A DNA stretch of 41,177 nucleotides from Archangiaceae bacterium (lineage in GTDB: Bacteria > Myxococcota > Myxococcia > Myxococcales > Myxococcaceae): contig JAACJQ010000388.1 in the NCBI GenBank assembly GCA_016879935.1, positions 1-41,177 on the forward strand, written 5' to 3'. The notes under the pieces were generated by a model that was given only the letters and a program-made list of their open reading frames with translations, ran no database searches and had not been told where the DNA came from. The translations under genes were made by a program, and so were the position numbers. Shown piece after piece: positions 9,713-32,770 of the stretch. Each line of letters opens with the position of its first letter. Positions within the stretch are counted from its first letter, which is position 1.

Positions 9713-9728
9713 TGGCACCAGCGTTGCT
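9713..9728 (+). promoter_or_regulatory. Sigma-54 (-24/-12) promoter of gspC1 and the gsp operon
   Basis: The sequence TGGCACCAGCGTTGCT matches the sigma-54 consensus TGGCAC-N5-TTGCW at every defined position, with GG at 9714-9715 and GC at 9726-9727 separated by exactly 10 bases. Transcription would start near 9739, only about 4 bases before the ATG at 9743, so the message would be nearly leaderless if that ATG is the true start. Only two exact matches of this kind were found by eye in the window, and the other sits at the start of the second gspC gene. Confidence 0.65.
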
Positions 9729-10669: not shown

Positions 10670-10685
10670 TGGCACCGGGCTTGCT
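10670..10685 (+). promoter_or_regulatory. Sigma-54 (-24/-12) promoter at the second gspC
   Basis: The sequence TGGCACCGGGCTTGCT is a second exact match to TGGCAC-N5-TTGCW, with GG at 10671-10672 and GC at 10683-10684 at the required 10-base spacing. Transcription would start near 10696, just before the GTG at 10702. If the second gspC instead started at the ATG at 10669 or 10588, this element would lie inside the coding region. It mirrors the element in front of the first copy in sequence and in distance to the start codon (14-17 bases between the GC and the start codon). Confidence 0.55.
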
Positions 10686-26134: not shown

Positions 26135-26311
26135 GGCCGCTCAAGTGCTATCGACGCGACCACGATGCGGGTCGGAATGGAGGCCCAGGCCGCGAGCTGT
26201 GACTCGTCGTTCATGAGCCCCCCTTGAGGATACATGGGACCAGGCCCCGGAGTGCGGGCTGCGTTTCGACCCTTCCACGCCCCGCAGGCTGGTGCTACCT
26301 CGCGCCCCACT

Positions 26312-27991
26312 ATGGCGGAGCTCGTCTTCCTGCGTCGCGGCGAAGAAGTCCTGCGGTTCACCATCGACAAGCCCCGCGTGGTCCTCGGCCGCGGTGACAA
26401 GTGCGACGTCGCCGTGCCCGACCCGGAGGTCTCGCGTCAGCAGGTCGCCATCACCACCACCGACGCCGGCGCCGAAGCCGAAGATCTCTCGGGCAAGGGC
26501 ATCGTCGTCGAGGGCAAGAAGGTCACCTCGGCTCCGCTCCAGGACGGCGCCGACATCGCGCTCGGCCAGTGGCGTGCCATCTTTCGCGCCAAGTCCTCGT
26601 CGGTCGACGAAGACGCCACGCAAATCGGGCAGCAGACCGAGGTCGCCGAGGTCGGCAGCGACGGCCCGCGAATCACTGCACAACTCCGCGTGCGTGGTCA
26701 GAAAGAAACCGTTCACAAACTGCAGGTCGACAGTTTTACCATCGGTAAAGACACCTCGAACGACCTCGTCGTGAACGAGCGCTACATCTCGAGCCGCCAC
26801 CTCAAGGTCACCCGCTCCGACAATCGTTTCCACCTCGTCGATCAACAATCGACCAACGGCACCTGGGTCGGCCCGGTGCGGGTCTTCGAAGCCGAGATTC
26901 CCCTCTTCTCCACCGTGAAGCTCGGCAGCACCGAGATCGTCTTCGAGCCCACCTCGACCTCGGCCCTCACCGCCAGCAGCAAGGGCGGCACCTCGTACGA
27001 AGGCCTCATCGGCACCGACGGCGCCATGCGTGCGCTCTCTGAAGTCATCGAGCGCGTCGCGCCTTCGACCGCCGCCGTCGCGATCTTCGGTGAGTCGGGC
27101 ACCGGTAAAGAGCTCGTCGCCCGCGCGGTGCACAACCGCTCCACGCGCGCCGAGAAGGCCTTCATTCCCGTCAACTGCGCCGCCATCTCGAAGGAGCTCA
27201 TCGAGAGCGAGCTCTGCGGTCACGAGAAGGGCGCGTTCACCGGCGCCGAGAAGACCCACCGCGGTGCGTTCGAAGAAGCCGACGGCGGCACGCTCTTCCT
27301 CGACGAGATCGGAGAGCTTCCGCTCGAGCTGCAGGCCAAGCTGCTCCGCGCCCTCGAGTCGGGAGAGATCAAGCGCGTCGGCGCCGCCCGCCCCATGAAC
27401 GTCGACGTGCGCATCGTCGCCGCCACCAACCGCGACCTGCTCGACGAGGCCCGCAAGGGCCGCTTCCGCGAAGACCTCTACTACCGCCTCTGCGTCGTGC
27501 CGCTGAACCTGCCGCCCCTGCGCAACCGCAAGTCCGACGTGCCTGCGCTCGCGCAGCACTTCCTCAAGCTCTTTTCGCCCAAGGGAGCGCCCGTCACGAT
27601 GTCGCAAGACGCGCTCGCCAAGCTCGCCAACCACTCGTGGCCGGGCAACGTGCGTGAGCTGCGCAACGTGCTCCACCGCGCCCTGCTCATGCGCCGCGGT
27701 CACTCGGTCGAGGCCGGTGACATCACCTTCCAGAACAACCCGGCCACCGCGATGCCTCCGCCCTCGGCGTCGCCGATGCCCGCCGGCCCCTCGCCCATCG
27801 ATGGTCAGGTCTACCAACCTGGCCGCACGCTCGAAGATCACCTCGCCGCGCTCGAGAAGGAGATCATCCTTCAGGCCCTCAAGTTCCACGGGAACTCGAA
27901 GGAGAAGGCCGGCAAAGAGCTCGGCATCGGCCGCTCCACGATGTTCAAGCGCCTCAAGGACTGGGGCCTGACCACTCCGGGCGAGGAGTAG
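26312..27991 (+). CDS. Sigma-54 activator with two FHA domains
   Basis: This 559-residue enhancer-binding protein has two tandem forkhead-associated domains instead of a receiver. FHA1 is at about 1-95 ([20 protein letters not shown]). FHA2 is at about 125-215 ([28 protein letters not shown]). The AAA+ domain (about 240-465) has GESGTGKE near 260 and GAFTGA near 307, and a Fis-type helix-turn-helix lies at about 515-555. FHA domains read phosphothreonine, so Ser/Thr kinases are the likely input. FHA1 looks the less canonical of the two. The ATG at 26312 gives a start directly at the first FHA strand; the frame is open from 26234. A sigma-54-like element lies 11 bp after its stop. No kinase gene is adjacent. 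Confidence 0.93.
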
Positions 27992-28002
27992 CCGCACCTC
28001 GC

Positions 28003-28018
28003 TGGCACGCGCGCTGCT
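28003..28018 (+). promoter_or_regulatory. Near-consensus sigma-54 promoter behind the FHA activator gene
   Basis: TGGCACGCGCGCTGCT matches the sigma-54 consensus except C for T at the first base of the -12 box. GG at 28004-28005 and GC at 28016-28017 are 10 bases apart. It is nearly identical over 19 bases to the element at 32717 before the mcp gene. The predicted start is near 28029, reading into the direct-repeat region. Confidence 0.45.
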
Positions 28019-28091
28019 CAACCAGCCGCATGGCCCAGCGAAGACCGCTCGAACGTGTCGAAGCAGCCGCACTCTCACGCGTCCCAGCCAC

Positions 28092-28153
28092 GGTCAGCGA
28101 AGACACGCAGGAGCCTCGGCTCATCAGGCTCGGCTCCGGTTCCGTCTCACGCG
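28092..28153. repeat. 62-bp direct repeat, copy 1
   Basis: This copy is 61/62 identical to copy 2 (28200-28261); the only difference is T at 28140 against C at 28248. The unit contains an inverted repeat GAGCCT/AGGCTC with a 9-base loop, and an alternative GGAGCC/GGCTCC pairing, so a transcript could form a hairpin. A shorter flanking match (TCTCACGCGTC) also occurs just before this copy. Confidence 0.95.
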
Positions 28154-28199
28154 TCTCAGGTTCGACCCCGCCTGCGCTCGCCACACTCGCCTCGGCCCA

Positions 28200-28261
28200 G
28201 GTCAGCGAAGACACGCAGGAGCCTCGGCTCATCAGGCTCGGCTCCGGCTCCGTCTCACGCG
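28200..28261. repeat. 62-bp direct repeat, copy 2
   Basis: This is the second copy, offset 108 bp from the first, with the same GAGCCT/AGGCTC inverted repeat. The 46 bp between the copies are unrelated to the unit. Near-perfect identity outside a gene implies a recent duplication or selection on the sequence. Confidence 0.95.
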
Positions 28262-28310
28262 GCCGCCCGGACACGGCGTGGCCGAAATTCGTACCCAGCC
28301 TTTCGGCTCC

Positions 28311-28337
28311 GGTAACCCCACGGATTCACCCCGTTAG
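28311..28337 (+). promoter_or_regulatory. ECF-type promoter before the sigma factor gene, possible autoregulation
   Basis: GGTAAC at 28311-28316 and CGTTAG at 28332-28337 are separated by 15 bases, resembling the GGAAC / CGT pattern of many ECF-sigma promoters. The start codon of the ECF sigma factor gene is 33 bases downstream. Autoregulation would be typical, but this is a pattern match only. Confidence 0.4.
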
Positions 28338-28369
28338 ATCGGCCGCGCGAGAGGGGCGTTGAACGACCC

Positions 28370-28888
28370 ATGACCGCGCTCCCTCCCCTTCACGAGCTCT
28401 ACGCCCAGCATCGCCAGCGGGCGCTCGCCGTGGTTCGCCGCATCGTGAAAGACGCCGACGAAGCCGAAGACGTGGTGCAGGACGTCTTCGTGCGCCTCTT
28501 CTCGAAGGACGTGAACTTCGACGGCAAGGCCGCGTGCACCACCTGGCTGCACCGCATTCTCATCAACTCGTCGATCAACTCCCTGCGCGCCAAGAAGCGC
28601 CGTGGCCGCCTCGAGACGCCGCTGGGCCTCGTCGAAGACCCCGAAGCGCGCGCGGTCGGCAACGAGCGTCACGCGATGCTCCTCGAAGCCCTGCAGCACC
28701 TCTCGGAGCAACACCGCCTCGTCGTCACCCTGCGCGACGTGCGCGGCTACTCGTACCCCGACATCGCCCGCATGCTGGGCCTGCCCGAAGGCACCGTGAA
28801 GAGCGCCCTCAACCGCGGCAGAACCCGCCTCGCCAAAGTCCTCGCGCTCACCGAACCCGAAGCCGGGCTCGAGGCGTGCGCAGACTGA
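28370..28888 (+). CDS. ECF-family RNA polymerase sigma factor
   Basis: This 172-residue sigma-70 family protein has only regions 2 and 4. Region 2 (about 7-75) shows DEAEDVVQDVFVRLF and the TWLHRILIN helix. Region 4 (about 105-160) shows LSEQHRLVVTLRDVRGYSY, then the helix-turn-helix PDIARMLGLPEGTVKSALNR. It would direct RNA polymerase to a small regulon. No anti-sigma factor gene follows: the downstream gene is convergent, and its stop codon directly abuts this one. Regulation may instead be transcriptional, from the ECF-like or sigma-54-like sites upstream. The C-terminal tail beyond region 4 is short, so no fused sensor domain is present. Confidence 0.94.
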   Translation: MTALPPLHELYAQHRQRALAVVRRIVKDADEAEDVVQDVFVRLFSKDVNFDGKAACTTWLHRILINSSINSLRAKKRRGRLETPLGLVEDPEARAVGNERHAMLLEALQHLSEQHRLVVTLRDVRGYSYPDIARMLGLPEGTVKSALNRGRTRLAKVLALTEPEAGLEACAD

Positions 28889-32432: not shown

Positions 32433-32770
32433 CGCTCCTCCGATTGAGCGCCTGGCTTCGGCGCGTAGGTGATCCAGCGCTCAGGGGAATACAAACGTCA
32501 CGCCACCTTCCTGGGGTCACAGGCTGATCCACCACGGGTGCGCCGAATCGTCAGCGTGCACCGGCAGTTGAGGTGCCCTCGAGCGTGATCGCAGCACCCG
32601 GCGGCGACACGCCCGTGACGCCCCGCTCCGGGGTCAATCGCACGCCGGAGGTGAAGCTGACCCGCTGGGCCCCTGACGACGCCCCGGTAACCGTGCGGAT
32701 CAGCGAGCGCGGCAGGTGGCACGTGCGCTGCTCAAGTCGCAGTCGTTCACCCTTTCCGAGGAACGACTCC
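32433..32770. other. 338-bp divergent region between cheX and mcp
   Basis: No convincing gene is seen. An open frame runs on the plus strand from the in-frame TGA at 32525 into the mcp gene, with high third-position G/C between about 32573 and 32725 and then a drop. It could be a decayed coding remnant or an extended MCP N-terminus, but no family is recognisable. A sigma-54-like element lies at 32717. Confidence 0.5.
32717..32732 (+). promoter_or_regulatory. Near-consensus sigma-54 promoter before the mcp-che operon
   Basis: TGGCACGTGCGCTGCT has the -24 GG (32718-32719) and -12 GC (32730-32731) ten bases apart; the only departure from consensus is C for T at the first base of the -12 box. 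The predicted start is near 32743, giving a leader of about 28 bases that includes the ribosome binding site. It shares 18 of 19 bases with the element at 28003. Confidence 0.5.

Follow-up and report, generated by a model that had tools for sequence, protein, structure and literature searches.

Gene arrangement at the locus

The locus lies on contig JAACJQ010000388.1 (assembly GCA_016879935.1) of an Archangiaceae bacterium in the Myxococcaceae. Positions 1-41,177 of the contig (forward strand) were analyzed and are called the window here; the interval of interest is 28003-28369. A gene for an FHA-domain sigma-54 activator (enhancer-binding protein) runs along the forward strand at 26234-27991 and encodes the Pfam domains FHA, Sigma54_activat and HTH_8, with GAFTGA at residue 333; its true start may lie downstream of 26234. 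The next gene on the same strand (28370-28888) encodes a 172-aa ECF sigma factor with Pfam domains Sigma70_r2 and Sigma70_r4_2. All features described below for the gap between these genes are given on the forward strand. This genome (G000) was compared within a set of 96 family genomes that includes it and holds seven members of the genus, and the ECF gene was matched in 86 of the 96.

A sigma-54 element shared within the genus

The element TGGCACGCGCGCTGCT at 28003-28018 has one mismatch to TGGCACG-N4-TTGCW, bearing out the near-consensus sigma-54 element that the preliminary description placed behind the FHA activator gene. At one-mismatch stringency the window contains four sigma-54-like sites compared to 0.49 expected from shuffles. 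A match by itself therefore proves little, and conservation in the genus must carry the sigma-54 claim. Further one-mismatch sites lie at 9713-9728, 10670-10685 and 32717-32732.

ECF loci were collected from the best 30 of the 86 matching family genomes, and 28 gave a gap behind an FHA activator gene; L059 (cut at a contig start) and L070 (without an FHA match) were left out, and duplicates L076, L077 and L081 were dropped. The pattern TGGCAY-N6-TGC occurred in five of these 28 gaps. All five belong to the genus, where six of seven genomes were readable (in G002 the ECF gene is cut by the contig start), and none of the 22 gaps outside the genus carried it. Across the five loci the -24 and -12 blocks are constant and the intervening letters vary, with the GG and GC dinucleotides 10 nt apart in each species. 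Counting from GG at -24 and GC at -12 gives a predicted transcription start at 28029, the same position proposed earlier. A 43-nt block beginning there (28029-28071) is kept at 95% identity in two congeners, G003 and G005, and partly in G006, and could be a functional leader. Conservation thus identifies the sigma-54 element as real and makes a sigma-54 input at this position credible, with promoter activity predicted from sequence; the simplest use of the element would be to add an input to the ECF gene that follows.

A family-wide motif before the ECF gene

A second motif, TAGATC-N16-CGTT at 28335-28360, directly precedes the ECF gene. AGATC-N16-CGTT was found in 26 of the 28 gaps and AGATC-N17-CGTT in the other two, making this motif family-wide among the gaps compared, unlike the sigma-54 element, which was found only in the genus. 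TAGATC-N16-CGTT is probably the ECF gene's own ECF-type, autoregulatory promoter, and we infer that the ECF factor itself would read it. A conserved two-block motif directly 5' of the gene in 28/28 gaps recalls other autoregulated ECF sigma genes, from which the present locus differs by the second, sigma-54 promoter added in its genus; the TAGATC/CGTT motif here carries no link to a named ECF group.

The longer pattern TAGATC-N16-CGTTGA occurs five times in G000, three times in G003, twice in G005 and seven times in G006, and these extra sites in four genus genomes point to a possible ECF regulon. The reversed pattern never occurred, a weak control because it contains CTAG, which is rare in many bacteria.

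An open frame between the two motifs

A 110-codon frame at 28030-28362 spans both repeats in the gap, and 7 nt separate its end from the start codon of the ECF gene. In all five sigma-54-bearing loci, the distance from the T of TGGC to the start codon of the frame is exactly 27 nt, which puts this codon within one base of the predicted transcription start, and the frame stays open to the same TGA, which overlaps CGTTGA. The five frames have 110 (here), 53, 53, 57 and 43 codons, the value for each of the two nearest congeners being 53. This regularity raises the possibility of a leaderless upstream ORF, in which sigma-54 transcripts would start at the codon at 28030 and translation to the TGA would couple the activator's signal to ECF translation, the repeats having lengthened the frame without breaking it.

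Against this idea, substitutions between G003 and G005 number 7/6/8 over the codon positions and leave 11 non-synonymous and 5 synonymous changed codons, so that any protein from the frame shows no sign of constraint. An open frame is also likely by chance in this composition (0.34-0.82 per sequence), and both frame ends are fixed anyway by conservation of the promoter and the block. We regard the leaderless ORF, which would be compatible with the two-promoter explanation developed below, as possible but doubtful; coupling may also be envisaged with no selection on the protein itself. The earlier view that the region holds no convincing gene mostly stands, since the amino acids look unconstrained, but it needs to be qualified by a frame that is kept in relatives. 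The preliminary description named, as evidence against an RNA gene, a protein frame crossing the repeats and conserved in relatives. This is half present: the frame is kept and the protein is not.

Two copies of a dispersed palindrome

Two 62-bp repeats that are 61/62 identical (28092-28153 and 28200-28261) are present as previously described, 108 bp apart. They prove to belong to an imperfect palindrome of about 108 bp that is dispersed in the genome and is present here twice, once in full and once clipped. The full copy (28154-28265) matched a covariance model of the repeat with 98.5 bits (E 8.4e-21), this unit itself being in the training set of the model. The truncated copy (28076-28153), in which the left arm is degenerate, was matched at 28049-28157 with 45.7 bits. 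Units end in CAGTTCGACT ... GTCTCACG.

Searching this genome with 28029-28290 returned 27 matches, and the covariance model returned at least 67 on 48 contigs, a lower bound as 150 of 19332 candidates were scored; some of the lowest-scoring matches, with E up to 0.01, may be due to chance. The congener G006 has 21 diverged matches, and G004, G013 and G095 each have a single weak one. Any match to the model was found in 5 of the 96 family genomes including G000, under stricter filters than those of the own-genome search. Rfam yielded no credible family at the locus. No earlier report of such a repeat in myxobacteria was found in the literature searched, most subscription papers lying outside it.

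In C103 and C62 the units form head-to-tail arrays with a 108-bp period. Identity averages 92% within arrays (10 pairs) and 71% between arrays (315 pairs). Several contigs (loci L022, L024, L030, L031, L032, L037, L039 and L040) begin or end inside repeats or a few bases from them, suggesting that arrays broke the assembly at those ends. Head-to-tail order, a fixed period and local homogeneity are what plain local tandem duplication, a minisatellite without mobility, would produce. Homologous units nevertheless occupy dozens of places that are unrelated to each other, a second species has them too, and a single unit in C377 occupies a gap that holds none in a relative. This dispersal already disfavors a minisatellite, which we consider extremely improbable.

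Sites with and without the repeat

None of the five other genus gaps that could be read at the ECF locus has the repeats, and relatives without a unit were seen at three loci in total: the ECF locus, C62 and C377. The matched flanks at the C62 site are separated by 35 nt in G001 compared to 348 in G000, and the equivalent site in G001 and G003 holds a small GTCTCAC...GTGAGAC hairpin (G001 C247 9059-9085). At the C377 site, the two halves abut in G003 (C283:39561/39562) and G000 has 92 extra bases; the G003 letters at this join resemble the right end of the unit, so a remnant may have been left in G003. A unit of G006 compared with relatives gave no clear orthologous site, and that comparison was left out of the evidence.

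Around 2286-2640 of L025, this genome carries an array where relatives carry the small GTCTCAC...GTGAGAC hairpin. A widespread family of such hairpins was considered as a parent of the repeats and rejected, as the hairpin was found at one place each in 4 of 9 genomes.

The placing of units relative to neighboring genes was also counted, with genes called by a home-made GC3 rule and not a gene finder. In 11 of 34 arrays with a right-end CTCAC, the TCA (TGA on the other strand) serves as stop codon for a long ORF of coding-like character; the count leaves out 9 of 43 arrays without this right end and those truncated by a contig start. Relative to co-directional neighbor genes, units are opposed in 16 cases and point the same way in three, the ECF locus among the three (p ~0.004, two-sided binomial calculated by hand, leaving out arrays with an unclear flank or inside a called ORF).

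Pairing and folding of the units

For 26 aligned units a structure of 23 pairs was drawn by hand, in which the whole unit forms an imperfect palindrome and the loop at its apex varies. In this structure 25 cells are changed on both sides compared to 6.4 in shuffles, none of 500 shuffles reaching 25, and 87.3% of cells are paired compared to at most 44.8% with the partner slid; the structure was drawn from the same 26 sequences that were used for these counts. Further pair types were no more frequent than in shuffles (251 of 500 reach the value). Larger model-fitted sets (45 units, and 18 units of G006) agree on the pair counts, though counts from alignments A2 and A3 lean towards the structure because both were fitted to the model. 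The outer pairs GT/AC and GAC/GTC are kept in nearly all units, and no clean target duplication was seen at the two sites read. The hairpin potential previously noted for the repeats is real, although the free energy of the 341-nt stretch is ordinary (z -0.07 relative to shuffles).

The covariation could come from a selected RNA or DNA hairpin instead of passive spread, and the 108-bp units might then be a structured element, either an RNA 3' end or a protein-binding hairpin, kept beside genes for its function. The orientation bias and the shared stop codons would fit such an element. Folding of all eight units examined is within 1.6 standard deviations of shuffles, the wobble pairs left in A2 with one pair set aside (5 GT/TG compared to 13 AC/CA) indicate no clear strand, and presence in the genus is patchy. 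On balance, a selected function for the units seems rather unlikely.

Why a small RNA is unlikely

The preliminary description proposed a sigma-54-dependent stem-loop RNA built from the repeats, by analogy with Pxr of Myxococcus. Pxr is described as having a sigma-54 promoter and as being flanked by nla19 and a gene for NADH dehydrogenase (PMC5568312). Measured against that account, the present locus shares a predicted sigma-54 start with a sigma-54 activator gene next to it, a likeness of setting and no proof of membership, and differs in being flanked by the FHA activator and ECF sigma genes rather than nla19 and NADH dehydrogenase (PMC5568312). The Pxr family model RF01812 gave no match at 27900-28500 up to E 5. 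Its single match in the genome is at C128:16281-16389 (L192), with 65.8 bits under a cut-off of 80 bits, and is probably this genome's Pxr homolog. Membership of the locus in the Pxr family was rejected on these grounds.

The conserved sigma-54 element beside an activator gene, the conserved block at the predicted start and the ability of the repeats to form hairpins could all be accommodated by an RNA gene. Other observations speak against it: the repeats are dispersed elsewhere and missing from the five congener gaps, folding energy is ordinary, the probable Pxr homolog resides on another contig, and a search for an intrinsic-terminator-like site found none. Rfam returned no family over threshold at 27900-28500, where one chance-level match lies inside the ECF gene, and seven repeat loci that were sampled likewise gave none. 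A small-RNA reading of the locus is unlikely, and a Pxr-like RNA whose stem-loops are the repeats is very unlikely. As full and clipped copies of a dispersed repeat, the units are probably mobile or tandem DNA and not a dedicated regulatory RNA gene. What survives of the proposal is the sigma-54 setting next to an activator gene and, of its suggestion that the ECF gene is regulated, the sigma-54 input but not an RNA made from the repeats.

Likeness to known repeat elements

The units are dispersed, multi-copy, short and imperfectly palindromic, and orthologous sites without the element exist, as in MITE- and ERIC-like elements. ERIC is itself an imperfect palindrome, and pneumococcal RUP is about 107 bp long. 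ERIC, the enterobacterial repeat units RU-1, RU-2 and RU-3, and RUP all lie interspersed between genes, measure roughly 100-170 bp and are regarded as MITE-like. For the RU units, open frames are reported (PMC2759123). ERIC, RU and RUP are the nearest kind to the 108-bp units, set beside them by description only; the 108-bp units differ in also standing head-to-tail, in their sequence setting and in having no known transposase partner.

REP/REPIN sequences mobilized with a Y1 transposase (RAYT) are likewise dispersed, hairpin-capable palindromes beside genes, but they are short hairpins compared to units of 108 nt. The Y1 transposase domain (PF01797, Y1_Tnp) was absent from all six genus genomes searched, with a control set matching in 5 of 14, so a REP/RAYT route is not supported and a Y1 partner was rejected. 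A phage or plasmid source gave no match at the sensitivity used and was rejected. Integron attC arrays were considered because the units are imperfect palindromes, but the units follow directly on one another every 108 bp, with no cassette genes in between. The repeats add a new example, restricted to the genus, to an established class of element, the MITE/ERIC-like interspersed palindrome.

A probable two-promoter leader with an inserted repeat

The gap is probably best explained as an ECF leader with two promoters into which a repeat element was inserted. The first promoter would be the sigma-54 element, on which the FHA activator from the adjacent upstream gene probably acts; transcription from it would begin near 28029, cross the leader and continue into the ECF gene. 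The second, TAGATC-N16-CGTT before the ECF start codon, would probably be autoregulatory. In this lineage one full and one clipped 108-bp palindrome would have been inserted between the promoters, presumably without a regulatory role of their own. The element would behave as a non-autonomous MITE- or ERIC-like repeat, entering new sites by means of a putative mobility enzyme and then multiplying head-to-tail.

A more ambitious picture would give the repeats a part in regulation. Genus-restricted, covarying 108-bp palindromes would enter at gene ends, often sharing the neighbor's stop codon or a small pre-existing hairpin, and multiply in tandem without a Y1 transposase; here they would lengthen a leaderless, sigma-54-driven upstream ORF in frame, and the hairpin units would tune coupling between the FHA activator and the ECF sigma factor. 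We consider this combination a long shot.

On the reading of a two-promoter leader with an inserted repeat, a dispersed repeat accounts for the striking sequence feature, and a false small-RNA candidate falls away. This reading also provides two testable promoter motifs for a family-wide pair of FHA activator and ECF sigma factor. With its covarying palindromes, head-to-tail arrays and shared stop codons, the repeat family is a useful case for asking how short palindromes can spread through large myxobacterial genomes when no Y1 transposase takes part.
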